Source of the DNA: Paenibacillus sp. GP183
Lineage (GTDB): Bacteria > Bacillota > Bacilli > Paenibacillales > NBRC-103111
Reading direction: 5' to 3'
Length of the DNA stretch: 64,000 nucleotides
Assembly: GCF_900104695.1 (NCBI RefSeq)
Contig: NZ_FNSW01000001.1
Location: 3,838,001 to 3,902,000, forward strand
A program made the position numbers and the translations under genes. Positions 36,959 to 63,983 of the stretch are shown here, one piece after another; position 1 is the stretch's first letter; every line of letters begins with the position of its first letter. The notes beneath the pieces are model-generated. The model saw only the letters and a list, made by a program, of their open reading frames with translations, was not told the origin of the DNA and did not search any database.

Positions 36959-37320
36959 GGGGGCGTTTTTGGATTCGACGGGGATAGTTCGAGCGCGGGT
37001 TGCGGGTAGTGGGGACGCGTCCACTATAACAACGCTAAAGCCTATTAAACGGCAAAACACAAAACAACTACGCTTTAGCAGCTTAATAACCTGTTAGCGT
37101 GCTCCTCCCTAGCATCGCCCATGTGACTAGGATAGGGGCTCAACTATAGTGGGATACGACGTTCGGTCTCCGCCTGGGGTCGACGTAAGAAGACAATCAG
37201 GCTGACCCAACGCATAGCCGGTTACGGGGCGCTGCTCGGGTGACATCAAAACTGTGACTACACCCGTAGATGCCTGTGTGGCGATGTTTTCGGACAGGGG
37301 TTCGACTCCCCTCGCCTCCA
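36959..37320 (+). ncRNA. ssrA: tmRNA (SsrA), copy 1
   Basis: tmRNA rescues stalled ribosomes and adds a degradation tag. The 362-nt gene has the acceptor stem GGGGGCG/CGCCTCC, the tRNA-like GGATTCGAC block, the T-arm CAGGGGTTCGACTCCCCT and an encoded CCA. The tag frame at 37,051-37,086 reads GKTQNNYALAA followed by TAA. It lies in the usual place after smpB and has its own terminator, so it is probably the resident copy. Confidence 0.95.
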
Positions 37321-37325
37321 TCTTG

Positions 37326-37351
37326 AAACCCGCTCCTGGAGCGGGTTTTTC
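37326..37351 (+). terminator. Terminator after tmRNA copy 1
   Basis: AACCCGCTC pairs with GAGCGGGTT, followed by a T-run, 6 nt after the CCA end. Confidence 0.9.
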
Positions 37352-37387
37352 TGTGAAATCAACCATAATTTTGCCGCCTTGGCAAGG

Positions 37388-37425
37388 ATATGCTTGATTT
37401 AGTGTATGGCAGCAATATGCTTGAT
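37388..37425 (+). repeat. Direct repeat upstream of tmRNA copy 2
   Basis: The 13-mer ATATGCTTGATTT occurs twice, starting near 37,388 and 37,413, directly before the second tmRNA gene. It may be part of its promoter region or a junction scar; no clear SigA promoter is seen. Confidence 0.5.
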
Positions 37426-37445
37426 TTTTTAAATTGTTTTTACAC

Positions 37446-37807
37446 GGGGGCGTTATTGGATTCGACAGGAGTAGTACGAACATGAATAGCGGGTAGTGGG
37501 GACGCGTCCACTATAACAACGCTAAAGCCTATTAAACGGCAAACAACAACCAACTTACGCTTTAGCAGCTTAATAACCTGTTAGCGTGCTCCTGCCTAGC
37601 ATCGCCCATGTGACTAGGATAGGGGCTCAACTATAGTGGGATACGACGTTCGGTCTCCGCCTGGGGTCGATGTAAGAAGATAATCAGGCTGACCCAACGC
37701 ATAGCCGGTTACGGGGCGCTGCTCGGGTGACATCAAAACTGTGACTACACCCGTAGAAGTTTATGTGGCGTTGCTTTTGGACAGGGGTTCAAATCCCCTC
37801 GCCTCCA
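37446..37807 (+). ncRNA. ssrA: tmRNA (SsrA), copy 2
   Basis: A second full-length (362-nt) tmRNA gene follows the first by 125 bp. It has an intact acceptor stem, GGATTCGAC block, T-arm GGGGTTCAAATCCCC and CCA. The tag at 37,538-37,573 reads GKQQPTYALAA. The central pseudoknot region is nearly identical to copy 1, but the tRNA-proximal helix differs by paired changes (T-A for C-G and A-T for G-C twice) that keep it folded, arguing against decay. No clear terminator follows. It borders the accessory region and may have arrived with it. Confidence 0.93.
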
Positions 37808-48797: not shown

Positions 48798-48814
48798 CTA
48801 ACGAAGTACGATAG
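48798..48814 (+). repeat. Cassette repeat K (left half-site only)
   Basis: CTAACGAAGTACGATAG matches the left half. No hairpin or right half follows; the ileS promoter begins 45 bp later. Confidence 0.65.
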
Positions 48815-48858
48815 CACAACGTTCAGCCTCATTTTCACTGTATGGTTTTCAATCAAAG

Positions 48859-48887
48859 TTGACATTTTATTGACAATGGTGTAAAAA
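48859..48887 (+). promoter_or_regulatory. Promoter of the T-box/ileS transcript
   Basis: TTGACA and TAAAAA are separated by 17 bp. Confidence 0.7.
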
Positions 48888-48917
48888 AGAATTAACTGAA
48901 TGTCTTAATAAATTCAT

Positions 48918-49182
48918 TGACGAGAAAGAGTACGCTAATCCCTTGTTCCCCAGAGAGTTGGGCATGTGCTGAAAGCCAACGTTCAAGACTTAGCAGAAAA
49001 TCCTCTCCGAGAAGGAAAGCTGAAGCAATTAAGTAAGCTGACCCGGGATCCAGCCGTTATAAAGGATGCGTATGATGGTACGTAATAAGAGGTGTCGTAA
49101 GATCATGTCTTTCATGATCATTACGGAACTAGGGTGGTATCGCGAGATGAAATCTCGTCCCTTATGGGGCGGGATTTTTTTG
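48918..49182 (+). promoter_or_regulatory. T-box leader of the isoleucyl-tRNA synthetase gene
   Basis: T-box leaders sense uncharged tRNA and allow read-through of a terminator. Visible parts are an AGTA motif, AGAGAG, the probable specifier ATC (isoleucine) at 49,000-49,002, the T-box element GGGTGGTATCGCG with its TGGT bulge (fits tRNA ending ACCA), and the terminator stem ending in TTTTTTT at 49,181. The specifier agrees with the gene downstream. Confidence 0.88.
49152..49181 (+). terminator. T-box-controlled terminator
   Basis: TCTCGTCCC pairs with GGGGCGGGA (using G-T pairs), followed by seven T. The T-box element would form the competing antiterminator. Confidence 0.85.
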
Positions 49183-49241
49183 TGTTTTACAATGTTAGCC
49201 GATAAATTAAATTCACTTTGTTTTAAGAAAGGTTGGTATGT

Positions 49242-52200
49242 ATGAGAAAAGTTGATGTGAAAGAGAAAGCGAGAACCCGTGAGCTTCGTGTTCTGGAGCA
49301 GTGGATACAAAATGATACATTCCGCAAATCGATTGAAAACCGCGTGGGCAAACCGAACTTTGTCTTTTACGAGGGGCCTCCGACTGCAAATGGAGAGCCT
49401 CATATCGGGCACGTACTTGGACGCGTCATTAAAGACTTCATCGGTCGTTACAAAACTATGTCAGGATACCGTGTCATCCGTAAAGCCGGTTGGGATACGC
49501 ATGGCCTTCCTGTCGAACTAGGCGTGGAGAAAAAGCTAGGTATTTCCGGCAAACAGGAAATCGAAAAATATGGAGTTGCCGAATTCGTAGAAAAGTGCAA
49601 AAGCAGTGTTTTCGAATATGAGAAGCAGTGGCGTGAACTGACCGAAGCGATCGCATACTGGACTGACATGGAAAACCCTTATGTTACGCTTACAAACGAT
49701 TATATCGAGAGTGTATGGCACATTTTATCTGCAATTCATAAAAAAGGTTATCTGTATAAAGGCCACCGGGTAAGCCCTTACTGTCCTGATTGTCAAACAA
49801 CACTCAGTTCTCACGAAGTTGCCCAAGGCTATGAAGATGTAAAAGATTTGAGTGCCACTGTGAAATTCAGAAGTAAAAACGGAAATGAATATTTCCTTGC
49901 TTGGACGACAACACCTTGGACACTGCCTGCAAACGTTGCTTTAGCAGTAAATAAAGATTTGGATTATGTCAAAGTAAATCAGAATGGCAAGGTATACATC
50001 GTCGCAAGAAATCTTGTTGAAAAGATCATGAAAGGGGAATACGAGATCTTATCAACGCATAAGGGTTCTGAATTTGTAGGCACTCCATATGAGGCTCCTT
50101 TTGGCTATATTAATGTGAATAAAGGGCATATCGTCGTAGACGCGGATTATGTCAGCGACACCAGCGGTACCGGTATCGTCCATATCGCTCCAGCTCATGG
50201 AGAAGATGATTATCGCACGGTCAGACAGCACGAAATGGATTTCGTAAATGTCGTGAATATGGCCGGCCGTTACACCGATCAGATCGCAGATTTTGCAGGA
50301 CGCTTTGTCAAAGATTGCGACATCGATATTGTGAAAAACTTGTCCGAGCGTAACTTGTTGTTCTCCAAAGAACGTTACGAACATAGCTATCCATTTTGCT
50401 GGCGCTGCAAATCACCGCTGCTCTATTATGCGACCGAAAGTTGGTTCATCAAAACGACAGCAGTCAAAGAGCAGCTAATCGAGAACAACAGCAGGATCTC
50501 CTGGTACCCTTCTCATATCCGCGAAGGTCGGTTCGGCAAGTTTCTAGAAGAACTCGTCGATTGGAATATCAGCCGGAATCGCTTTTGGGGTACTCCACTT
50601 AATGTATGGGTATGCCAAGATTGCGCATCGGAATATGCACCGGGCAGCCATAAGGATCTCCGGGAAAAATCGGTTCATCCGATAGACGAAAGCCTTGAGT
50701 TGCATAAGCCCTACGTAGATAAAGTGAAGCTTCGCTGTTCTTGCGGCGGTTCCATGGAAAGAACGTCGGAAGTGATTGACGTCTGGTTCGATAGTGGCTC
50801 GATGCCGTTTGCCCAGTACCATCAGCCGTTCGAAAATGAAGAGCTATTCCATGAGCAGTACCCTGCTGACATGATCTGCGAAGGGATTGATCAAACGAGA
50901 GGCTGGTTCTTCAGTTTGCTGGCTGTCTCCACGCTATATAATGGCAAATCCCCTTACAAAGCTGTCATATCAACCGGGCACGTACTCGATGAGAATGGAC
51001 AAAAAATGTCCAAGAGTAAAGGTAACGGTATCGACCCTTGGGAAATCATAAATGAATTTGGAACGGATGCATTTCGGTGGGCCTTGTTGTCTGACAGCGC
51101 ACCTTGGAACAGCAAACGGTTCTCAAAGCAAATCGTAGCCGAAGCTAAATCAAAAGTAATCGATACGATCAATAACACGCATGCTTTTTATGCGTTGTAT
51201 GCGACGATTGATCAATATAAACCGGAAGAGCATTCAAAGCAGATTTCTGTGAACTTATTGGATCGCTGGATTTTGTCGAGATTGAGCAGCACCTTGCAAA
51301 ATGTAGAGAAGGGGCTGGAGATCAACGATTTCCTGAACCCAGCAAAGCAAATTGAAACATTCGTCGATGAACTGAGCAACTGGTACATCCGACGTTCTCG
51401 CGATCGTTTTTGGGGCAGCGAATTGACCGCGGATAAAATATCGGCATATCAAACGCTGCGTGAAGTTCTGCTGACACTCGCACGAATGATTGCACCGTAT
51501 GCACCGCTAATAGCTGATGATCTATACGATAATTTAAGAGGAAAAGGAAGTGTACATCTGGCGGACTATCCGAAGATGAACGATACGGCACTCGATGAAA
51601 CGCTTGAGAACGATATGGAAGCCGTTAGGCAAATCGTCGAATTGGCTCGCAATATTCGTAATGAAACGGGAATCAAGACCCGCCTGCCGCTGTCCGAGGT
51701 GCTCATTTCGCTCGACCGCGAATTTAACCTTGGACAATTCGAAGACATCATCAAAGATGAGATCAACGTCAAAGAAATCCGAGTAGTACGAAGTGATATC
51801 GGCTTCTTACGCTTCAACTTAAAACTAAACTTAAAGGTAGCAGGAAAAAAGTACGGCAAATTCGTGGGACCGGTGCAAACCCATTTGAAGCAATTGTCCG
51901 CTTCAGAAACGAAAATAGTGATCGATAACGGTTTCCTGGATGTTACGATCGAAGGTGAATCACTGCATATCCTGCTCGATGAATTGCTTGTGGAAATACA
52001 AGCGAATGTAGGCTTCGCTTCTGCATCGGGTTACCAAATGACAATCGCCTTAAACACAACAATTACCGAAGAATTGGAACAGGAAGGTGTTGTTAGGGAG
52101 GTAATACGTGCAATTCAGGATTATCGTAAAAAGCTAGGGTTGCCGATCGAAAAACGTGTCAATCTTGTTCTAGATGTTGATACTCAGTTGAAAACAGCTC

Positions 52201-52322
52201 TAAAGCGTTTTGATCATCTTTTGCAGGAAAACGTATTATTGTCCCGAGTCAGATACGCGAAAGAACTAGGCATGGAATCAGTTTCGTTTGGGGATAACAA
52301 TTTCAGTATGCTCATTGAGTAA
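49242..52322 (+). CDS. ileS: Isoleucyl-tRNA synthetase, eukaryote-like type (IleS2, possible mupirocin resistance)
   Basis: This 1026-residue class I synthetase charges tRNA-Ile. It has HIGH as GEPHIGHVLG near residue 55, KMSKS as GQKMSKSKGN near residue 588, an editing domain between them, and the zinc-free long C-terminal part of the eukaryote-like IleRS2 group. In bacteria this type tolerates mupirocin, as known for MupA and for IleS2 of producers and soil bacilli. It is the only gene of its unit, with its own promoter and T-box. The chromosomal housekeeping ileS is expected elsewhere, so this may be an extra copy. The resistance role is inferred from the family. Confidence 0.9.
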   Translation: MRKVDVKEKARTRELRVLEQWIQNDTFRKSIENRVGKPNFVFYEGPPTANGEPHIGHVLGRVIKDFIGRYKTMSGYRVIRKAGWDTHGLPVELGVEKKLGISGKQEIEKYGVAEFVEKCKSSVFEYEKQWRELTEAIAYWTDMENPYVTLTNDYIESVWHILSAIHKKGYLYKGHRVSPYCPDCQTTLSSHEVAQGYEDVKDLSATVKFRSKNGNEYFLAWTTTPWTLPANVALAVNKDLDYVKVNQNGKVYIVARNLVEKIMKGEYEILSTHKGSEFVGTPYEAPFGYINVNKGHIVVDADYVSDTSGTGIVHIAPAHGEDDYRTVRQHEMDFVNVVNMAGRYTDQIADFAGRFVKDCDIDIVKNLSERNLLFSKERYEHSYPFCWRCKSPLLYYATESWFIKTTAVKEQLIENNSRISWYPSHIREGRFGKFLEELVDWNISRNRFWGTPLNVWVCQDCASEYAPGSHKDLREKSVHPIDESLELHKPYVDKVKLRCSCGGSMERTSEVIDVWFDSGSMPFAQYHQPFENEELFHEQYPADMICEGIDQTRGWFFSLLAVSTLYNGKSPYKAVISTGHVLDENGQKMSKSKGNGIDPWEIINEFGTDAFRWALLSDSAPWNSKRFSKQIVAEAKSKVIDTINNTHAFYALYATIDQYKPEEHSKQISVNLLDRWILSRLSSTLQNVEKGLEINDFLNPAKQIETFVDELSNWYIRRSRDRFWGSELTADKISAYQTLREVLLTLARMIAPYAPLIADDLYDNLRGKGSVHLADYPKMNDTALDETLENDMEAVRQIVELARNIRNETGIKTRLPLSEVLISLDREFNLGQFEDIIKDEINVKEIRVVRSDIGFLRFNLKLNLKVAGKKYGKFVGPVQTHLKQLSASETKIVIDNGFLDVTIEGESLHILLDELLVEIQANVGFASASGYQMTIALNTTITEELEQEGVVREVIRAIQDYRKKLGLPIEKRVNLVLDVDTQLKTALKRFDHLLQENVLLSRVRYAKELGMESVSFGDNNFSMLIE

Positions 52323-52373
52323 CAATCACTGAACAAACTAATGAGAATTCCTATGAATTTAAACTCTTTAATC

Positions 52374-52427
52374 CAATATCAGAATAGTCTACCATCGAAT
52401 AACTTGGTAGCCTATTCTGATATTGGG
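52374..52427 (+). repeat. Long inverted repeat after ileS
   Basis: CCAATATCAGAATAG and CTATTCTGATATTGG form a 15-bp perfect outer stem, with an inner CTACCA/TGGTAG stem. No T-run follows. It may be a stabilising 3' hairpin, or an unusually AT-rich version of the hairpin part of a cassette repeat. Confidence 0.75.
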
Positions 52428-52516
52428 ATGCGATACAATAAAAATTAGCCGCATTCTTAATCAAGCGGATTTACTTACATCGGAAAATAAAGTATTAAAC
52501 TGGGTGGGGCGTTAAG

Positions 52517-52532
52517 CTAACGGGCAGAATAG
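52517..52532 (+). repeat. Cassette repeat L (right half-site)
   Basis: CTAACGGGCAGAATAG is an exact consensus right half. With the inverted repeat at 52,374 as hairpin and the AACTAATGAG at 52,338 as an eroded left half, this may be a full but enlarged copy. Confidence 0.75.
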
Positions 52533-52617
52533 CGTAATTCAATTTGTGGAAAATATGGACAAATTTTGTTTGGGAGTGATACATTTAATATCAACAACTC
52601 GTTAGGTGTGATATTGA

Positions 52618-54428: not shown

Positions 54429-54516
54429 CTAACGGATACGATAGTTGAATGATCCTAGGAGCAGATTGCCGCTGCGGTAGCTGCTCTTTTAATCGTTGAA
54501 GTTACGGGCAGGATAC
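54429..54516 (+). repeat. Cassette repeat O (complete)
   Basis: The left half is the exact consensus CTAACGGATACGATAG, then TTGAATGATC, a GAGCAG...CTGCTC hairpin with inner CCG/CGG, and the right half TTACGGGCAGGATAC. Confidence 0.85.
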
Positions 54517-54593
54517 CCTAATTACAACGCAGAATCACTTTATATCGGGAAACCCAAAGTTATCTAAAATGAAGTTGAGTATAAGGAGGTATT

Positions 54594-55430: not shown

Positions 55431-55447
55431 CTAACGGGAAACGATAG
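55431..55447 (+). repeat. Cassette repeat P (left half-site, interrupted by a transposon-like insertion)
   Basis: CTAACGGGAAACGATAG lies 30 bp after the methyltransferase gene. After 20 more bases the sequence turns into the mini-transposon end. No hairpin or right half is found on the far side. Confidence 0.8.
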
Positions 55448-55467
55448 TGGTATAGAGGCTAAATACA

Positions 55468-55731
55468 TGGTTGTCATAAGTACTTCAAAACTTTTTTGTA
55501 TTTTAGCCTTTTTGTACCAAACAACCACTTCAGAACTTTATTTGTATTTTATATTTCTCAAATAAACCAGCCAACCCATGAGTTTGCTGGTTTCTTGCAC
55601 TTCAAGACTTTATTGTCCCCCAACATCATTTTGTTGAAGGACAATAAAGTTTTGAAGTAGACAATAATGTCTTGAAGTGAACAATAAAGTCTTGAAATAG
55701 ACAATAAAGTTTTGAAGTATGAAAATTTAAA
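55468..55731 (+). mobile_element. Mini (non-autonomous) Tn7-like element
   Basis: The left end has three spaced sites of the type ACTTCAAAACTTTATTTGTA (55,482, 55,527 and 55,599). The right end has four sites in inverse orientation (consensus GACAATAAAGTTTTGAAGT) at 55,640, 55,660, 55,680 and 55,700, exactly 20 bp apart. This matches Tn7 architecture: three spaced TnsB sites at one end and four packed ones at the other. The left half, including an internal AACCAGC/GCTGGTT hairpin, is clearly similar to 59,023-59,171, the end of the tns-bearing element. It has no gene. The right boundary is approximate and no target duplication was found. Confidence 0.75.
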
Positions 55732-55755
55732 AATGGAGCTGGCGATAGATAATAA

Positions 55756-55887
55756 AAAGCCGACCTAGCTTTTAGAGCCGGCAAAGGTGATGTGAAAGTT
55801 ATTCGGGCGATTGTCGGAGAACGGACTTGGGGAGCAATCGGCCAGCCAATTTTCAGGCATTTCGGTGCGGATATTGAGAACGGTTAA
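55756..55887 (+). pseudogene. C-terminal fragment of an unidentified coding sequence
   Basis: A frame open from 55,756 without a start codon encodes 43 residues (including KGDVKVIRAIVGERTWGAI and IFRHFGADIENG) and ends at TAA, followed at once by a terminator. It looks like the 3' end of a gene cut by the neighbouring insertion. The family is not recognised. Confidence 0.45.
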
Positions 55888-55917
55888 AAGTCCATCCTTT
55901 TGTGGGATGGACTTTTT
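55886..55917. terminator. Terminator between the gene fragment and the ABC operon
   Basis: AAAGTCCATCC pairs with GGATGGACTTT around a short loop, followed by TT. It may serve the convergent ABC operon as well. Confidence 0.8.
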
Positions 55918-55941
55918 ATGTGCGATCAGGCGGTTATTTGA

Positions 55942-56454
55942 TTAGATTTCCATGCCCTGACGTCCGGAAACTTGCCGGAATTTCACATAGCTGCCAAATC
56001 TCCAAATGCAAAGGTAGACAAACACCAATACCATCGTTAAAACTGTAAATTCACTGTAATCCATGCTCTTGAAATACAGCGACAAACCGATCCGGATGAT
56101 CACAATCGCGATGATGACGTATTTAAAATTTTTATTCGGTTTTGAATAAACCAGACCGTCCTCCCGCTTTTCATACGACGTCTGCATGAGAATAATGACA
56201 CCTAATGATATCCCCAGCAGCACAGCGATCACGATTTCCCAATAAGCCGGGAGGTGAAAAGTTCTGCCAGGTATGTGCATGAGCTGGTATAAACCTACAT
56301 ACATGAGCACGAACACCAGCAGAACGGGAGCTAAAATCCATAAGCCGTTTCCTTTAATCGGACTTCCTCTGCGTTTTAATCTGATCCATATGACCAAACC
56401 GATAATAATGAGAGCGAATACGTAGGGTACCCAGGCTAACATTGCAATTTCCAC
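55942..56454 (-). CDS. Membrane protein of unknown function in the GntR-ABC operon
   Basis: This 170-residue protein has about five hydrophobic segments (such as YVFALIIIGLVIWIRL and VLLVFVLMYVGLYQLM). It is the last gene of the four-gene minus-strand operon. No domain is recognised. It is probably a membrane component or accessory of the transporter encoded upstream. Confidence 0.7.
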   Translation of the reverse strand: MEIAMLAWVPYVFALIIIGLVIWIRLKRRGSPIKGNGLWILAPVLLVFVLMYVGLYQLMHIPGRTFHLPAYWEIVIAVLLGISLGVIILMQTSYEKREDGLVYSKPNKNFKYVIIAIVIIRIGLSLYFKSMDYSEFTVLTMVLVFVYLCIWRFGSYVKFRQVSGRQGMEI

Positions 56455-56474
56455 CTTTCTTCAATTCATAAGTC

Positions 56475-57257
56475 TTATAAAGTCAATTTGAGTTCAAGTA
56501 CGTAGGCGGTAAATCGAATAATAAAATAAGCCGCGATCCAACTTGCCCCCATTCCGGCCGGCACTTCCCATGGGATAGGGTGCCAGGCTGCCTCGGTTAA
56601 ACTGCGAGCAGTCGGGCTATCTGGAAAAAACTTGCCGAGCCCTCCGAAAGCATAGCTGATTCCTCCGACAAAACCCGCCCAAAGAATCGGGCTTAGGGGT
56701 CTTAATGAGCTGAATTGTGTGCCGGCAATTAGCAAACTGACCGCAAGTAAAAACGGACTGAAGCCGATCATCAGCAAAAGCCACTGTAGTCCAGTCAAAA
56801 TAAACGATTCCACTTCCGCCAACGTATACAAGCTTAGCGATATCGATATCGCTAAGGCATATATCGAGAGCAAAGCGAAAACACTGAGCACGGCCACCAG
56901 CATTCGCAGCCACGCGGCGATCCACTTGGCGCTAACGAGCCAAAGCCGCGAATACGGCAACGTGAGCCACCAGCCGTAGGTCTCGTTTTCCCATTCCCTC
57001 TTTAGAATAGCGACCCCGAATGCGATCAATACGTAGGGAACGCCGATCCATACGGACCATAGTCGCTTCAATGGCAGTTCATAATGAACGGAATAATAAG
57101 TAGTGATTCCGGCACCGACAATCACGATCAGCGCGAGGTAAAGGAATACCCAACCTTTGGAGAGATGCAGCCGGCTGCGCCCTTTCCAGCTTCCTTTCAG
57201 CTTGAATTCATGATGCACCATTTTCCAAAACATGCCGGATGGATTCACCGTTCCCAC
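56475..57257 (-). CDS. ABC-2-like permease protein
   Basis: This 260-residue protein has six hydrophobic segments in the arrangement of ABC-2-type export permeases, with an N-terminal cytoplasmic stretch. It overlaps the ATPase gene by 13 bp and so pairs with it. The substrate is unknown. Comparable YtrA-regulated transporters in Bacillus respond to cell-wall antibiotics. Confidence 0.78.
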   Translation of the reverse strand: MGTVNPSGMFWKMVHHEFKLKGSWKGRSRLHLSKGWVFLYLALIVIVGAGITTYYSVHYELPLKRLWSVWIGVPYVLIAFGVAILKREWENETYGWWLTLPYSRLWLVSAKWIAAWLRMLVAVLSVFALLSIYALAISISLSLYTLAEVESFILTGLQWLLLMIGFSPFLLAVSLLIAGTQFSSLRPLSPILWAGFVGGISYAFGGLGKFFPDSPTARSLTEAAWHPIPWEVPAGMGASWIAAYFIIRFTAYVLELKLTL

Positions 57258-57958
57258 TCCTTTTTGTACAGTGTCCGGAACACATCGTGCAAGGATCCGT
57301 GCCGGGCCCGCAATTCATCCGTTTCGCCCGACCAAATGGCTCTCCCTTGATTCATCATCACGGTGTAGTCGAACAATCCCTCGACCTCCTGAATATCGTG
57401 GGTGCTGATCAATACGGACTGCTCACTGTGCTCCAGATAATCGAACAAACCGGCAACGATAGCTTCTCTGGAAAGCACGTCGATCCCGGCAAACGGTTCG
57501 TCCAAGATGATCAGCGGCACATGCCGTGCCAAACAGAGGACGAGCATAACCCGGGCCTCCTGTCCGCGGCTCATGCCGGCGATTTTCATGTTGAGTTCGA
57601 TATCCATAAAGGCAACTAGCCACCGCGCGATCTCTATATCGAAGCGCGGAAGGAACGATTGTCCCCAATCGAATGCTTGCTGCGCCGTATAATTCGGATA
57701 CCATCGCGCTCTGTCCGGCAAATAGGCGATTCCTTGGTTCGTTTGCCAACCGACCGGTTGACCGAGCACTTCCAGCCTCCCTTCATCCGGTCTGATCAAA
57801 CCGGTGATCGCGCGAAACAGGCTGGACTTGCCGCATCCATTGGGACCGAGTATCCCGACGATCCGGCCGGCTGGAATGGTAAGATTAAGGTCGTCGAGCG
57901 CGGTTTTCTTGTCATATCGCTTCGTCACTTTTTCGGCAACGACAATGGGTGAAGTCAC
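57245..57958 (-). CDS. ABC transporter ATP-binding protein (YtrB-like)
   Basis: This 237-residue ATPase has Walker A GPNGCGKSSL, the signature MSRGQEARVML (variant of LSGGQ, as in YtrB-like proteins), Walker B IILDEPFAGID and the H-loop ISTHDIQEV. It overlaps the regulator gene by 4 bp and the permease gene by 13 bp, so the proteins are co-translated. Confidence 0.9.
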   Translation of the reverse strand: MTSPIVVAEKVTKRYDKKTALDDLNLTIPAGRIVGILGPNGCGKSSLFRAITGLIRPDEGRLEVLGQPVGWQTNQGIAYLPDRARWYPNYTAQQAFDWGQSFLPRFDIEIARWLVAFMDIELNMKIAGMSRGQEARVMLVLCLARHVPLIILDEPFAGIDVLSREAIVAGLFDYLEHSEQSVLISTHDIQEVEGLFDYTVMMNQGRAIWSGETDELRARHGSLHDVFRTLYKKEWER

Positions 57959-58362
57959 GGCTCCATCCCTCCTCTATCCAATTGTTTCTTTTTCATGACA
58001 TAGTGTTCAATATCCGTCCAGGCAACCCCCAGGCTTTCCATTTGCGCCATAAAAGCGTCAATATATTTGGTTGCAAGATCAGTACGAAACGACCTTACGC
58101 GCTCCGCCGATGAAGTGACATAAGTTCCTTGTCCGCGGCGTTTTTCTGTTAACCCGTCCCTCTCCAATTCCTGATAAGCCCGCATGACGGTATTCGGATT
58201 AATGCGCAATTCCTGCGCCAATTCCCGAACAGAAGGCATCCTGTCTCCCAACCCGATCTCTCCTTTCGCGATAGCGCTTCGCACCTGATCAAGTATTTGT
58301 TCGTATATCGGTTGACTGAAGTCGATCCGGAATCGCAGCCAGGCATTCGAAGATTGTTCCAT
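57955..58362 (-). CDS. GntR-family regulator, YtrA subfamily
   Basis: This 135-residue repressor has the GntR winged helix (PIYEQILDQVRSAIAKGEI and MPSVRELAQELRINPNTVMR) and only a short C-terminal helix, the YtrA type. It starts at 58,362 after CAGGAGG. An 18-bp perfect inverted repeat lies just upstream over the promoter, so the operon is probably autorepressed and induced by a membrane-active or cell-wall compound. Confidence 0.9.
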   Translation of the reverse strand: MEQSSNAWLRFRIDFSQPIYEQILDQVRSAIAKGEIGLGDRMPSVRELAQELRINPNTVMRAYQELERDGLTEKRRGQGTYVTSSAERVRSFRTDLATKYIDAFMAQMESLGVAWTDIEHYVMKKKQLDRGGMEP

Positions 58363-58385
58363 GGGCGTTCCTCCTGTCGTCCACA

Positions 58386-58428
58386 CTTGCATTAAGTGTA
58401 TTATATCACTTAATACACTTAATGCAAG
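58386..58428. promoter_or_regulatory. GntR (YtrA-type) operator
   Basis: CTTGCATTAAGTGTATTA and its exact reverse complement are separated by 7 bp, 24 bp upstream of the gntR start. The AT-rich core can also hold the -10 box of the operon. Confidence 0.85.
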
Positions 58429-58558
58429 CCCATAATAGAAATCCAGGGTATTACGATCGTATCTGATACTACTCACATCATCTGCAAAATGTTGGTCCAG
58501 TTTTAGTCGATACACGGATTCTCCAACCTGGTGGCATTGTTGAATAGCTGATTTTTGC

Positions 58559-58590
58559 TTGACCCTAACACTAAGGTCAGGGTTTATAAT
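58559..58590 (+). promoter_or_regulatory. Orphan MerR-type promoter
   Basis: TTGACC and TATAAT are 20 bp apart, with the symmetrical ACCCT...AGGGT in the spacer, as in MerR-activated promoters. No merR gene lies next to it; the first gene downstream is the 74-residue hypothetical at 58,698. It may be left from a lost gene pair. Confidence 0.55.
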
Positions 58591-58697
58591 GAGAATATCT
58601 CGAGCAGAAAGAGAAGATGCAGTAGAAGATTGGGAAGTTAGCGAAGTGAGGGTTATATTAATTTGTATAATCTACAAGAAAGGAAAAAAGATGCGTT

Positions 58698-58922
58698 ATG
58701 GATATTACGCCACAAGAAGAAAACATGATTAAGGCTCTCCGTGAGGCTGCATTACCACCTTTATTTGTGCTCATACGAATTAGAAATGATATTTCAAATG
58801 ATACTGAAAATGTCGAAGAGAGCCGAAGAGATGACGTCGTAAAAACATTAGAAAAATACATCGGCCCACTATGGGAAGACTATCATGAGGGGAAGAATTC
58901 ACAAGCCAAAGAAAGACCTTAA
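58698..58922 (+). CDS. Small acidic protein of unknown function (74 residues)
   Basis: The ATG follows AAAGGA. The protein is predicted helical, highly charged and soluble (starts MDITPQEENMIKALREAALP). No family is recognised. It lies between an orphan promoter and repeat Q. Confidence 0.55.
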   Translation: MDITPQEENMIKALREAALPPLFVLIRIRNDISNDTENVEESRRDDVVKTLEKYIGPLWEDYHEGKNSQAKERP

Positions 58923-58985
58923 CGAATTAATCTTAACTATGCAGTGGCTACAAACCAGCACCACTTTGATTGATATCATTACGAG

Positions 58986-59000
58986 GGACGGATACGATAG
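58986..59000 (+). repeat. Cassette repeat Q (left half-site at the Tn7-like end)
   Basis: GGACGGATACGATAG, followed by TTGAATGAG as in repeat O, lies 22 bp before the start of the Tn7-like end. No right half follows on this side. Confidence 0.75.
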
Positions 59001-59036
59001 TTGAATGAGACCTAAAGATACATGTTTGCAAGAAGT

Positions 59037-59520: not shown

Positions 59521-59856
59521 ATGATTAATGGCTACGAATTAGCCACGGCTTGGGTTTCAGAAGTTGGTATTTGTTTGGAAGATCGTACTTATTCGGGAAA
59601 GACTGCAATTCGAGAACAATGGTTTCAGAAAGCTAAGATTCATGGACCTTGGGCTATTACAGTAAATCACCTCCCCTGTGACTCATCACGTATATATCTA
59701 AACAATTATAATTTCGAGGTGTGTAAAGTTATTGAATTCACATTATTAGATCAAGTTGATTTAGAGCAATACTATAGCCTTATTGAGATCTATAAAGAAA
59801 GCAAGCGTAAGTTCGATCGCCTAAAACGGGGATATAACTATGGATCCTTACGCTAA
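59521..59856 (+). CDS. Small protein of unknown function heading the tns operon
   Basis: This 111-residue protein starts at ATG 59,521 after GGGGGG. It is soluble, with a basic C-terminus (ESKRKFDRLKRGYNYG). It overlaps the tniQ-like gene by 17 bp, so the two are made together. I recognise no family. By position it may be an accessory or regulatory factor of transposition. Confidence 0.65.
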   Translation: MINGYELATAWVSEVGICLEDRTYSGKTAIREQWFQKAKIHGPWAITVNHLPCDSSRIYLNNYNFEVCKVIEFTLLDQVDLEQYYSLIEIYKESKRKFDRLKRGYNYGSLR

Positions 59857-61168
59857 GTTAGAGATAGGACAGGAAGAAATTATTTTACCGGCGATAAGTA
59901 CCTTATATTGCCTGCAACCAATGGGTTTAAATACAATGGCTGCTGAATCCCTAACAAGTTATATCGCTCGACAATCTCAGGCGCATTGCATCAAAACTGG
60001 AAATCTGTTCTCAAGGCTCTTATTCCCGTATTTAGATAAGGAATATATGAACCAGGGCGGAAGTGGCTTTTACACTTCAGCCCACTTAATAAATGGATTA
60101 ACAAAAATTGCAACTGAATTTGTAGACATGCTACGCGAATTAACCCTAAGCAACATTTTAGATCAACTTACTTTGTTACGGTATAAAAATGTGATTCCTA
60201 CTCGGGGATTGTTAAGAAGAAATAAGGCATGGTGCCCCTTGTGTTTTCAAGAGATGAGAGAACAAAAACTTACTGTTTATGAACCACTAATGTGGATGCT
60301 CCAAGCTTTGAGTGTATGTATGAAGCATGACATTAGTCTTCAAGAAATATGTCCACACTGTTCAAATACAAATTTAGTTCTAGAAGGCAGAAGTGCTCCC
60401 GGTTACTGTTCAAACTGCTCCTCTTGGCTTGGTAGTCGAGAAGAAGAAAGGATTCAGACTAAGGCTAATGAATGGGAACTTTGTAAGGGGAGATTAATTA
60501 AAGATCTGCTTTCGTCTGAGATATCAGATTTTAAAAGAGATGATGTCAAATGGACTTTAATGAAGTTAGCCCAGCTTTACACGAATGACAATATATCTGG
60601 GTTTGCCAAGTTTATAGGTGTTCCTAAAACATCATTCTGGGGATGGTATACAGGAAAAAACCTTCCGACCCTCGAGGATGTAATGAGGATATGCAACAAA
60701 TGCGACATCTCACTTGGTTCTTTTTATTCTGGGAATAGGTTAGGTAGTAATAGTCAATATGTGATATCTGCAAAAAGAATCAAAAAAGAAAACTTCATAC
60801 TCACACAAAAGTCGGTAGCTGAAGTGGGCAGGATATTTAAACAATTGGTGTTGGATCGAAAAAATATGCGAATAAACGTTACAAGTATGGCTAAAGAAGT
60901 GCAAGTCAATAAAAAGACATTGTATAAGTATTTTGGACCAATTTGTAAACAGCAGACGCGTATGAACAGGTATTACAAAGTCGGACAAAAGAATTTACGG
61001 ATTATTAAATTAAGTGGTGAAATATCAAAAGCATTTTCTTCGTTATTTAGTTCGGGTTTATTGCCTACTGTTCGTAGAATCGAGATAGAGTTACAGCGGC
61101 CAGCTATCTTACGAGAGAAAAAGATGAGTCGGCATTATAAATTGTGTAGGGAAGTATTCAATATATAG
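59840..61168 (+). CDS. tniQ: TniQ/TnsD-like target-site protein with added helix-turn-helix region
   Basis: TniQ-family proteins such as TnsD bind a target site and recruit TnsC. This 442-residue protein has a TniQ N-terminus (around YCLQPMGLNTMAAESLTSYI), then zinc-finger pairs C132/C135 (WCPLC), C171/C174 (CPHC) and C190/C193 (CSNC) with H163 nearby. Residues ~250-300 resemble a Cro-type HTH (FAKFIGVPKTSFWGWYTGKN), and a second HTH-like block (VQVNKKTLYKYFG) lies near 355. The double DNA-binding tail suggests a specific chromosomal target. Confidence 0.85.
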   Translation: MDPYAKLEIGQEEIILPAISTLYCLQPMGLNTMAAESLTSYIARQSQAHCIKTGNLFSRLLFPYLDKEYMNQGGSGFYTSAHLINGLTKIATEFVDMLRELTLSNILDQLTLLRYKNVIPTRGLLRRNKAWCPLCFQEMREQKLTVYEPLMWMLQALSVCMKHDISLQEICPHCSNTNLVLEGRSAPGYCSNCSSWLGSREEERIQTKANEWELCKGRLIKDLLSSEISDFKRDDVKWTLMKLAQLYTNDNISGFAKFIGVPKTSFWGWYTGKNLPTLEDVMRICNKCDISLGSFYSGNRLGSNSQYVISAKRIKKENFILTQKSVAEVGRIFKQLVLDRKNMRINVTSMAKEVQVNKKTLYKYFGPICKQQTRMNRYYKVGQKNLRIIKLSGEISKAFSSLFSSGLLPTVRRIEIELQRPAILREKKMSRHYKLCREVFNI

Positions 61169-61260
61169 GTGATAATTGAAAAATTATATCTAGATGTAGT
61201 AGGATTTTTTGAATTAGTGGAGAATTATGATAATTAAACCAATAACAGGCGGTGATGGAA

Positions 61261-61671
61261 ATGTTGAATGATGATGATTTCAGGAAAATATGTGAGTTAC
61301 ATCATCTCTCTAAAGAGGCTATTGAAGTTATTCAGCAAATTAGAACTTCTCCACCGGCAAGAAGAGTATCAAGCACCAGAGGAAGTCTGTCTGGCTTTTA
61401 CAGCAGCAAAAAAATGGGAGTTACTATTCAATATGAAAGCCATACTTTGGAGCTCCCCATCACTTACCTTTTAGAACATGATCCAAAAGTTTATGAGTTC
61501 TATGATCAGCCGCCAACTTTTCCAATTCGGTATTTGGTGAATGGGAAGCGACGCGGCCATCTATACACAGCCGATCAGTTCGTAATCTCGGAGGATTTCG
61601 TCGGTTGGCAGGAATGTAAAACTGAAGAGAAGTTTGAAAAATTATCGAAAGAACACCCCGAACGATATTGA
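61261..61671 (+). CDS. tnsA: TnsA endonuclease domain, ending early
   Basis: TnsA cuts the 5' strand at transposon ends. This ~136-residue product has the restriction-enzyme-like core: a Glu in TYLLEHDPKVYEF, the Asp in YTADQFVIS and the Lys in GWQECKTEE (matching the E-D-QxK pattern of TnsA). It stops where TnsA would go on to its C-terminal TnsC-binding domain. That domain is encoded at once in the next frame, fused to TnsB. The stop and the next start share TTGA. Start 61,261 best fits AGGCGG; 61,255 is an alternative. Confidence 0.82.
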   Translation: MLNDDDFRKICELHHLSKEAIEVIQQIRTSPPARRVSSTRGSLSGFYSSKKMGVTIQYESHTLELPITYLLEHDPKVYEFYDQPPTFPIRYLVNGKRRGHLYTADQFVISEDFVGWQECKTEEKFEKLSKEHPERY

Positions 61672-63983
61672 CAGAACAAGGCACTTGGGACATGCCACCA
61701 GTAAGGGAATACGCAGAGCAGCTCGGTTTATCTTTTCGAATTCGTACTGATAAGGAAATTGATTGGGTGTTTCAAAGCAATCTTCAATTTCTTGAGGATT
61801 ACCTGCTAGAGGAAAATGTAGAAGTTCCACAGGACATGAGACAAAAGATAATGGATATCGTAAACGAGAAGCAGGGAATATCACTTAAAGAATTAATTAA
61901 TCGATTTGGTGGACAATCTGACTCAGTATATAAATTAATTGTGTTGGATGATATTTATATTGACTTGTGTCAAGAAAGATTAACTGAGTGGGAATATGTT
62001 CGAGTATATACCAATGAGATTATAGCCAACGTACATGCCAAGCTACGCTATTGTCATAAAACAGAAGGGAAGTTTACTGGGGCGGTCGATATAAAAGCAG
62101 GTAACAAAGTCCAATGGGATGGTCGGGCTTGGACTATCCTAAATCACGGGGAAACTACCACAATACTTCTCGGTGAAAGCAATGAACAACTTCCACTCAC
62201 TAATGAGGTGTTTATTGATTTAATAAAATCTGGTGACATTCAAAACTTGAGGGCTGATTTCAAAGAAGAAGACGAATTGTTGAGTGAAATTTTATCGACT
62301 GCTGGTCCAATGGACTTGGAGAAGGCAATAAGAAGATTCAATATTGTATTTCCCTTAATCAACTGCGAAATGTCCGTCGAAGATTCCGGTATTCCATCCC
62401 GTACATTACGTGGTTGGATAAGTGATTATAAGAAAGGGGAAGAGGTCCACGGTAATGGGTTCATTGGTCTACTACCTGATTCCAAAAGTCAAGGAAATAG
62501 AACACCTCGGTTGTCGGAAGAAACTAAAGCTCTAATTGATGTATACATTGAAGAAGAATATGAAACTAGTACGAACAAAAAGATGAAAACGGTGTGGAGG
62601 GCTCTTAAAGAGAAGTGTGCTGAGAAGAAGATTCACTGTCCAAGCTATCAAACATTTTGTGAACATGTAAAATTAAGACCTCTATACGAACAGACTAAAA
62701 AGCGGGAAGGATTTAAAGCCGCGAATAATCATAAGCCTTTTTATTTTGAGTTAGAACAGACTACTCCTCGTCATGGAGAACGCCCTTTTCAAATTGGACA
62801 TATTGATCATACAGAACTTGATCTTGACTTAAGATGTCCTAAGACAGGTAAGTCATTGGGAAAGGCATGGATCACATTTCTTGTAGATGCATTCACAAGG
62901 CGAATTCTGGCCTTTTACTTATCATTCAACCCTCCAAGTTATCGTTCTTGCATGATGGTTATTAGAGAATGTGTAAAAAGACATGGCCGACTGCCAAGAA
63001 ATCTCGTTGTTGACGGTGGTAAGGAATTTGCCAGTGTTTACTTTGACACTTTGTTAGCATTATACAAAATTAATAAAAAGGAACGTAAAGGACAACCACG
63101 GTTTGGTTCAGTTATTGAAAGACTTTTTGGCGTTACAAATGAAATGTTGATTCATAATCTATTAGGTAACACTCAAGTGATGAAAAATGTTAGACAAGTC
63201 ACTCCGGATGTAAATCCAAAGGGAAAATCAGTTTGGACATTATCTGAATTAACACAATTAATGGCCTTGTGGACATACGAGGTCTACGATACGAAAGATC
63301 ACATTGCTTTGGGTGAAAGTCCGAGGGATGCCCATTTACATGGAATGGCTCAATCGGGACAACGTGAATTTACGATGATTCCGTACAACGAAGATTTCAA
63401 GATGCTAACTTTGCCAACAACAAGAAATAAAACTGCTAAGGTTTATGTGGGTCGAGGAATCAAGCTAAACTACATTTATTACTACTCGCCTGCTCTAAGA
63501 CAAGCAGATGTGGAGAATACTCAGGTTCCAGTACGTTATGACCCATTTAATGTAGGCATCGCATACGCATTTGTAAAGGGCAGATGGACTCAGTTAAGGT
63601 CAGAGCAGTACATGACATTTATTAATCGAACTGAAAAAGAAATTCAAATTATTACTGAAGAACTTAAGAAAAGAACAAGCAATACGGTGAAAGCCGGTGA
63701 TAGTATAACTGCTTCTAAGATTGCGGCTTTCCTTAACTCGTCCGAAGGAAAACAAATTACATTAATGCAGCATCTTAAAGATCTTGAATCACGACAAGCG
63801 CAGATGGTTCTAGACGGGAAACCAGCAACAGAACCAGTGAACAGCCAAGTTTCAAAAGAGCAAAACATAGAGACTCATTCTATGGTCGAAAACCATGCAA
63901 ATAAAGGAACTACCATAAGGCAACCCTCGAAGCCGAAGTTGCGTGAAAATCCAACATACATTGCATACGGGGAGTTGTCATAA
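61668..63983 (+). CDS. tnsB: TnsB DDE transposase with TnsA C-terminal domain at its N-terminus
   Basis: TnsB binds the ends and does the 3'-end cutting and joining. Residues ~1-115 (PPVREYAEQLGLSFRIRTDK, then FLEDYLLEENVEV) look like the C-terminal half of TnsA. The rest is TnsB: N-terminal DNA-binding regions, then the RNase-H-like core with D380 (GHIDHTE), D449 (LVVDGGKEFAS) and E484 (IERLFG), spaced as in DDE enzymes, and a beta-barrel. It starts at TTG in a 4-bp overlap with tnsA and has no clear ribosome site of its own, so translation depends on coupling or a -1 frameshift. Confidence 0.85.
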   Translation: MTEQGTWDMPPVREYAEQLGLSFRIRTDKEIDWVFQSNLQFLEDYLLEENVEVPQDMRQKIMDIVNEKQGISLKELINRFGGQSDSVYKLIVLDDIYIDLCQERLTEWEYVRVYTNEIIANVHAKLRYCHKTEGKFTGAVDIKAGNKVQWDGRAWTILNHGETTTILLGESNEQLPLTNEVFIDLIKSGDIQNLRADFKEEDELLSEILSTAGPMDLEKAIRRFNIVFPLINCEMSVEDSGIPSRTLRGWISDYKKGEEVHGNGFIGLLPDSKSQGNRTPRLSEETKALIDVYIEEEYETSTNKKMKTVWRALKEKCAEKKIHCPSYQTFCEHVKLRPLYEQTKKREGFKAANNHKPFYFELEQTTPRHGERPFQIGHIDHTELDLDLRCPKTGKSLGKAWITFLVDAFTRRILAFYLSFNPPSYRSCMMVIRECVKRHGRLPRNLVVDGGKEFASVYFDTLLALYKINKKERKGQPRFGSVIERLFGVTNEMLIHNLLGNTQVMKNVRQVTPDVNPKGKSVWTLSELTQLMALWTYEVYDTKDHIALGESPRDAHLHGMAQSGQREFTMIPYNEDFKMLTLPTTRNKTAKVYVGRGIKLNYIYYYSPALRQADVENTQVPVRYDPFNVGIAYAFVKGRWTQLRSEQYMTFINRTEKEIQIITEELKKRTSNTVKAGDSITASKIAAFLNSSEGKQITLMQHLKDLESRQAQMVLDGKPATEPVNSQVSKEQNIETHSMVENHANKGTTIRQPSKPKLRENPTYIAYGELS

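Follow-up and report, generated by a model that had tools for sequence, protein, structure and literature searches.

Tn7 is directed by TnsD to its insertion site at glmS, and IS1111-type elements settle in attC sites. Group IIC introns settle there as well (PMC7923331). Tn7 and Tn7-like elements with TnsD/TniQ target selection (PMC10293859, PMC8649781) share with the locus described here the genes tnsA (here tnsA-like), tnsB, tnsC and tniQ, and ends of unequal build, of which one has spaced sites and the other a tight array. The passages of PMC10293859 that were examined by term contain none of</find><why>b, g, w; TnsA test unclear, access talk</why></edit>
<edit><find>Exact CTAACGGNNACGATAG occurs 37 times in the genome and is present in 64 of the 104 family genomes,</find><replace>The genome has 37 exact copies of CTAACGGNNACGATAG, which is present in 64 of the 104 family genomes, integron, cassette, Paenibacillus, Firmicutes and terminator, while attC occurs in those of PMC8649781 as cargo and as method. 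In a literature search that covered subscription journals sparsely, we found no report of Tn7-like ends in cassette repeats, and work retrieved for Tn7-like elements together with Paenibacillus was unrelated by title.

Here we analysed 64,000 nucleotides of Paenibacillus sp. GP183 (the window; positions 3,838,001–3,902,000 of a 5.83-Mb genome), where Tn7-like ends stand in two repeats of a cassette array. Elements of this kind recur at a set position beside one half-site of the repeat, they are associated with the other half-site, and gene neighbours change at the core. The locus thereby links two mobility systems that are usually studied separately, Tn7-like transposons and cassette arrays.

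Results

The cassette repeat

From about 41 kb onward, the window holds an array of genes with a repeat as separator. The repeat consists of half-site A (CTAACGG-N2,3-ACGATAG), a terminator-like hairpin and half-site B (CTAACGGGCAGNATAGCG). One plain copy served for comparison:

54429–54517, plus strand: plain cassette repeat with A half-site, hairpin and B-like half-site (from the sequence and the listing of plain repeats)

Exact CTAACGGNNACGATAG occurs 37 times in the genome and is present in 64 of the 104 family genomes, while the reversed pattern, used as control, was found 0 times in the own genome and at most twice in any other. With two mismatches allowed, the half-site gave 129 matches in the own genome versus 78 for the control. 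In both half-sites, inverted arms (TTRARCTAACG and CGWTAGYTYAA) flank a short spacer, and the right arm of A is the inverted repeat of the left arm of B; in this, A and B look like recombinase core sites. Predicted folds of four plain repeats, on both strands, comprised the terminator hairpin and local stems and lacked one long attC-like stem joining the half-sites. Matching the two arms of A to each other gave no signal, neither beside elements (P=0.41, 31 sites) nor in plain sites (P=0.15, 89 sites).

Several features of the region stand on their own. Two tandem tmRNA genes (36959–37807), about 92% alike over 300 bp and with different tag peptides, lie at the start of the cassette region. 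In the stretch 48798–52534, an isoleucyl-tRNA synthetase gene is found between A and B, in the place that the hairpin has in plain repeats, and B is preceded there by a right-end-type site of the second Tn7-like family described below. All exact A half-sites between 0.65 and 2.91 Mb are on the minus strand and all those between 3.88 and 5.20 Mb on the plus strand, with a single plus-strand copy at 0.46 Mb, as if their orientation followed replication. At three loci (L256, L258, L262) A and hairpin are missing and gene ends are joined straight to B; this hints at a hairpin module that may be lost or gained as a unit.

Two repeats with Tn7-like ends

The first of the two repeats, P, has the following parts:

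55431–55454, plus strand: half-site A of P (CTAACGG-GAA-ACGATAG; CTAACGG at 55431–55437, ACGATAG at 55441–55447) with the tail TGGTATA (from the sequence)
55455–55467, plus strand: linker, ending in ATACA and not seen after plain A sites (flank comparison)
55468–55626, plus strand: left end of a mini element, with three spaced TnsB-type sites and a hairpin
55640–55719, plus strand: right array of four inverted TnsB-type sites, 20 bp apart

The second, Q, leads into a large Tn7-like element:

58985–59006, plus strand: half-site A of Q (GGGACGG-AT-ACGATAG; GGGACGG at 58985–58991, ACGATAG at 58994–59000) with the tail TTGAAT (from the sequence)
59007–59022, plus strand: linker GAGACCTAAAGATACA, in a form common to loci L045 and L046
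59023–59179, plus strand: left end of the large Tn7-like element (match to the end model)
59521–59856, plus strand: small open reading frame before tniQ (in the frame list it starts further upstream, at the ATG of 59488)
59840–61168, plus strand: tniQ, first of two (Pfam TniQ, E 4.6e-17)
61252–61671, plus strand: tnsA-like gene (NCBIfam TnsA-like, E 5.6e-5, below its cut-off)
61668–63983, plus strand: tnsB, DDE transposase (Pfam rve, E 1.7e-7, just under cut-off; Mu-transpos_C)
L043:1983–3131, outside the window: tnsC (TniB/AAA match)
L043:3536–4876, outside the window: second tniQ (TniQ match)

The earlier note had placed the transposon ends 20 and 22 bp after ACGATAG, each directly preceded by ATACA, and our coordinates agree: the left end begins with TGGTTG at 55468 in P and with TGTTTG at 59023 in Q. 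It had also considered that P and Q could be a segmental duplication that includes the flanks. This we reject, since the DNA before the two half-sites is unrelated and P holds a mini element some 250 bp long, with TnsB-type sites at both ends, while Q leads into tns genes. No ATACA was seen to the right of the array of P, and the mini element had no match in the same-genus genome G001. The left arm of the Q half-site is of the subtype GAGGGACGG; among the 55 A sites listed, 3 (L040 and twice in L044) have this subtype with no transposon end beside it.

With a TnsB-type DDE transposase, a TnsC-type ATPase and TniQ, the Q element is Tn7-like by its genes, which are ordered small open reading frame, tniQ, tnsA-like gene, tnsB, tnsC, second tniQ. 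The small frame had no match in Pfam or NCBIfam; by eye, comparable frames precede tniQ in genome G031 and in P. tianmuensis. The tnsA-like product is 75% identical to the TnsA part of a TnsA-TnsB fusion in P. tianmuensis, whose own Pfam match is likewise just under the cut-off. While the left end is present, no right array was detected within 38 kb downstream. A B-like site lies 11.7 kb after the left end, beside a short open reading frame that looks like part of an IS91-type transposase gene.

Left ends of the family and half-site A

We then asked where related left ends lie, using a sequence model that starts at TG and is hence blind to the flank. At E 0.01 it matched in at least 48 of the 104 family genomes, mostly within one genus and often in several clustered copies. 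The sample comprised five ends of the own genome and, among the matches listed, 64 from other genomes that matched from near the first model position (40 fetched, 24 the best match of a genome), partial ends and ends at contig edges being left out. Of these 69 ends, 68 were distinct and were scored; fixed distance and orientation to A were scored for left ends only.

With both arms scored and up to 4 of 16 mismatches allowed, half-site A was found at a fixed distance from 31 of the 68 distinct left ends, against 1.2% of 1,291 windows further upstream, so that chance can be rejected as the cause of the spacing. Without the five ends of the own genome, the count was 27 of 63. The strict motif ACG[AT]T[AT]G gave 37 matches in up to 400 bp upstream of the 69 ends, 30 of them 13–32 bp from the element end. 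Half-site A thus neighbours nearly half of the left ends of the family, and the arrangement in P and Q generalises, also to a second end family described below. Three further left ends of the family in the own genome are preceded by A, of which only the right arm is recognisable in L047.

The remaining 37 of 68 left ends are not at half-site A. The left end of L119 lies inside a gene that we take to be cupin-like, and that of L154 follows a stop codon. Among the matches listed, no joined empty site was seen for any of 16 copies classed as non-A, one of which (L128) scores as A-type at up to 4 of 16 mismatches. Model R1, applied to 24 loci of related tnsB elements, gave three matches (best E 0.0067) too weak to place the ends of these elements. 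In the array stretches L186–L205, no tns genes were detected at E 1e-4.

Linker, arms and terminus

If the element had brought half-site A along, both should share a lineage. Three of 37 A-type copies were dropped as being in the same gene, leaving 34 in different gene contexts (L148 and L128, kept apart here, may be one gene). Across these, the distance between element ends tracked the distance between the 12-bp linkers (r=0.45; 0 of 5,000 permutations as high) and was unrelated to the right arm and tail of A (r=-0.01, P=0.55), to its left arm (-0.10) and to the gene (-0.03). The independence of the arms from element lineage speaks for A as target DNA. The linker behaves differently: neither ATACA nor the 10–16 bp before it were seen in plain repeats, and they are therefore not plain target DNA. 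For the same reason, and because the right side of the P array showed no ATACA, TG as left terminus with ATACA as a duplication is not supported.

Nor is the linker supported as an obligatory part of the element. When L119 was compared with 10 uninterrupted relatives, homology reached up to 6 bp before TG in 7 cases and up to 17 bp before it in 3. The linker is thus not needed there, and shared linkers and right flanks would then mark inherited modules. L123 and L154 do not fix the terminus. By eye, no 5-bp target-site duplication was found in the printed flanks, where the exact termini are uncertain. Modules that move while the arms are reshuffled afterwards could possibly reconcile the results for linker and arms.

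Right ends and half-site B

A hairpin of the form GCGTTCACTC..GGGTGAACGC follows the right array in many copies, among them non-A copies such as L117, L125 and L126. Within the stretch read, exact ACGGGCAG follows downstream of 10 of 31 A-type ends versus 2 of 37 others (L124, L151); in eight A-type mini elements it lies about 90–135 bp past the last array site. The sequence before B, searched in 30 genomes, was found at 31 places in 15 genomes (reversed control, 0). Array sites are present upstream of B in 13 of 30 loci, 8 of which have no left end within 1,450 bp, and this implies that longer elements end at B too.

The 15 array-to-B junctions fall into flank classes of six, three, two and two members, with two single junctions. 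Within the two largest classes the DNA after B differs among members. L120 was grouped with the largest class by the hairpin of the element alone, and L118 and L150, which form a pair, also resemble each other past B. In 14 of the 15 junctions, inspected by eye, no leftover plain hairpin was recognised. The exception is L045 (listed as L116), where a GGAGC..GCTCC terminator between array and B may be a leftover of the target. P contains the first half of such a hairpin, and plain repeats of its own genome have similar ones.

The number of array sites differs between copies in the manner of tandem repeats, with a family maximum of up to 11 sites at 20-bp steps in L177. At 5.134 Mb (L045:6640–6760), a mini element is followed, ahead of B, by a hairpin and then by a right-end-type site that belongs to the second family; two end types thus meet in one repeat.

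The same gene ends with and without an element

As queries against the 104 genomes we took the 150 bp that precede each of 21 A-type insertions with a clear half-site; two candidates per genome were scored and 30 returned loci examined. In 11 of 19 comparisons with loci of other genomes, judged by eye, A came after the gene end, partly degenerate and with hairpin and B present or absent; in 3 the gene end met B directly, and in 5 there was neither. None of the 19 carried an element in the 230 bp inspected. The same gene end thus has A, B or neither elsewhere, which means that neighbours change at the core. One gene end carries the left-end family in some genomes (L149, L150) and the second family in another (L367); elsewhere it is followed by plain A (L250) or by A, hairpin and B (L257).

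A second end family

Some A sites are followed by ends of a second Tn7-like family with sites AGTCTAAGACTTTATTTT. A search of 30 genomes yielded 15 places, namely 14 left ends and one right array. By eye, an A site, in some cases degenerate, precedes 12 of the 14 left ends (three of the 12 being one locus in three genomes), and L369 and L373 lack it. These ends start 9–10 bp after A, or 20 bp in one locus. In several loci a right-end site of this family lies about 15 bp before B, in a sample biased by the fact that most such loci were fetched by the B pattern; one is in the window:

52485–52534, plus strand: right-end-type site of the second family beside B, behind ileS

Elements with a related TniQ in another family (G199 and G133; loci L384 and L385) show, some 900 bp ahead of tniQ, a hairpin ACAGCGGCAGCCTAGG..CTGTCGCTGT that comes close to the left end of the second family.

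Relatives of the first TniQ

The first TniQ of Q shares 57% identity with its counterpart in the G031 element (TnsB 47%), 51% with that in P. tianmuensis (TnsB 66%), 40–44% with those in G199, G133 and G289, and 24–33% with those in other relatives found through tnsB. At up to one mismatch, ACGG-N2,3-ACGATAG was absent from 35 kb around the G031 element and from the 34.6-kb P. tianmuensis contig. Near the presumed left end in P. tianmuensis, GAGTGACGGATACCATGA matches the Q site in 14 of 18 positions, by eye only. No A at up to 4 mismatches was found upstream of the G199 and G133 elements, and the four scattered matches upstream of the G289 element are at about chance level. If anything, these sequences speak against a siting of the TniQ relatives at A.

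Discussion

The reading that fits best, and that we hold with about as much doubt as belief, is that element-bearing modules are exchanged at the recombinase-like core. Genes and inter-gene modules would be exchanged at A and B by a recombinase that we likewise infer. Tn7-like elements, full or non-autonomous, would take the place of the hairpin, with the left end at A and, in many copies, the right end at B. A few modules of A, linker, element, flank and B, passed from gene to gene, would then be the main source of the fixed spacing in P and Q. How many original insertions there were, and by what route an element first came into the repeat, possibly via TniQ, we can only infer.

For such an exchange speak the excess of exact ACGGGCAG downstream of A-type ends, the shared flank classes with differing DNA after B in the two largest, and the 19 gene ends with A, B or neither and no element. 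The gene end that carries either family, plain A or A-hairpin-B points the same way, as does the joint variation of linker and element end, though L119 does without such a linker. However, a module should carry the right arm and tail of A along with the element, and these are independent of its lineage. The plain-type hairpin between array and B in L045, and partly in P, the assignment of L120 through the element's hairpin and the folding of plain repeats without one long attC-like stem also count against module exchange.

Of the two live explanations, the less likely in our view, possible but one that we lean against, is that TniQ would recognise A and direct insertion at a fixed distance to its right, repeatedly, as TnsD does at glmS. 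This was the proposal of the earlier note, and part of it stands: the elements lie in 34 gene contexts, the half-site occurs elsewhere without them, and its arms do not follow their lineage. The tight spacing of the strict motif, the 31 ends at A, the similar start of the second family after A, the better conservation of TniQ than of TnsB in G031 and the hairpin of L045, which could be leftover target, would all suit a homing TniQ. Yet our survey of related left ends placed more than half (37 of 68) away from the half-site, which partly matches an outcome that the earlier note had named as refuting, and linkers and right flanks are common to several loci, so that the spacing may be inherited; in addition, no duplication was seen by eye, and the elements with the closest TniQ have no clear A. 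The wider version, that two Tn7-like families home independently to an integron-like cassette recombination core in Firmicutes, with a TniQ-type selector reading a multi-copy repeat and cargo elements becoming cassettes, we regard as doubtful.

It is unlikely that a larger mobile unit has the half-site arms as its actual termini and creates A and B when it inserts. The interval from A to B is often filled by an element, and the right arm of A and the left arm of B are mutually inverted, as such a unit would have it; but ends without half-sites exist, as in the gene of L119, plain repeats carry the same arms without an element, and the right arm is unlinked to element lineage. Wide insertion with survival of harmless copies between gene and terminator, for which ends inside or behind other genes (L119, L154, L169) could be cited, is very improbable, as the spacing to A is too tight for mere tolerance.

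Whether the transposon found a safe target in many copies, or cassettes ferry transposons and their miniature relatives between genes, either reading would help to account for the clusters of non-autonomous Tn7-like elements in these genomes.

Compared with Tn7 and Tn7-like elements (PMC10293859, PMC8649781), the neighbour here is a multi-copy repeat between cassettes and not a single conserved gene, and Q has a separate TnsA-like protein and two tniQ genes, with no duplication seen. With integron cassette arrays the locus shares small genes, a repeat with inverted arms between them and exchanged neighbours; unlike in attC, the half-sites are direct repeats and the predicted folds are not one long stem. 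Like group IIC introns and IS1111-type elements, a mobile element lies here inside the recombination repeat of a cassette array; in contrast to these, it has Tn7-like ends, belongs to one of two families and often fills the interval between the half-sites.
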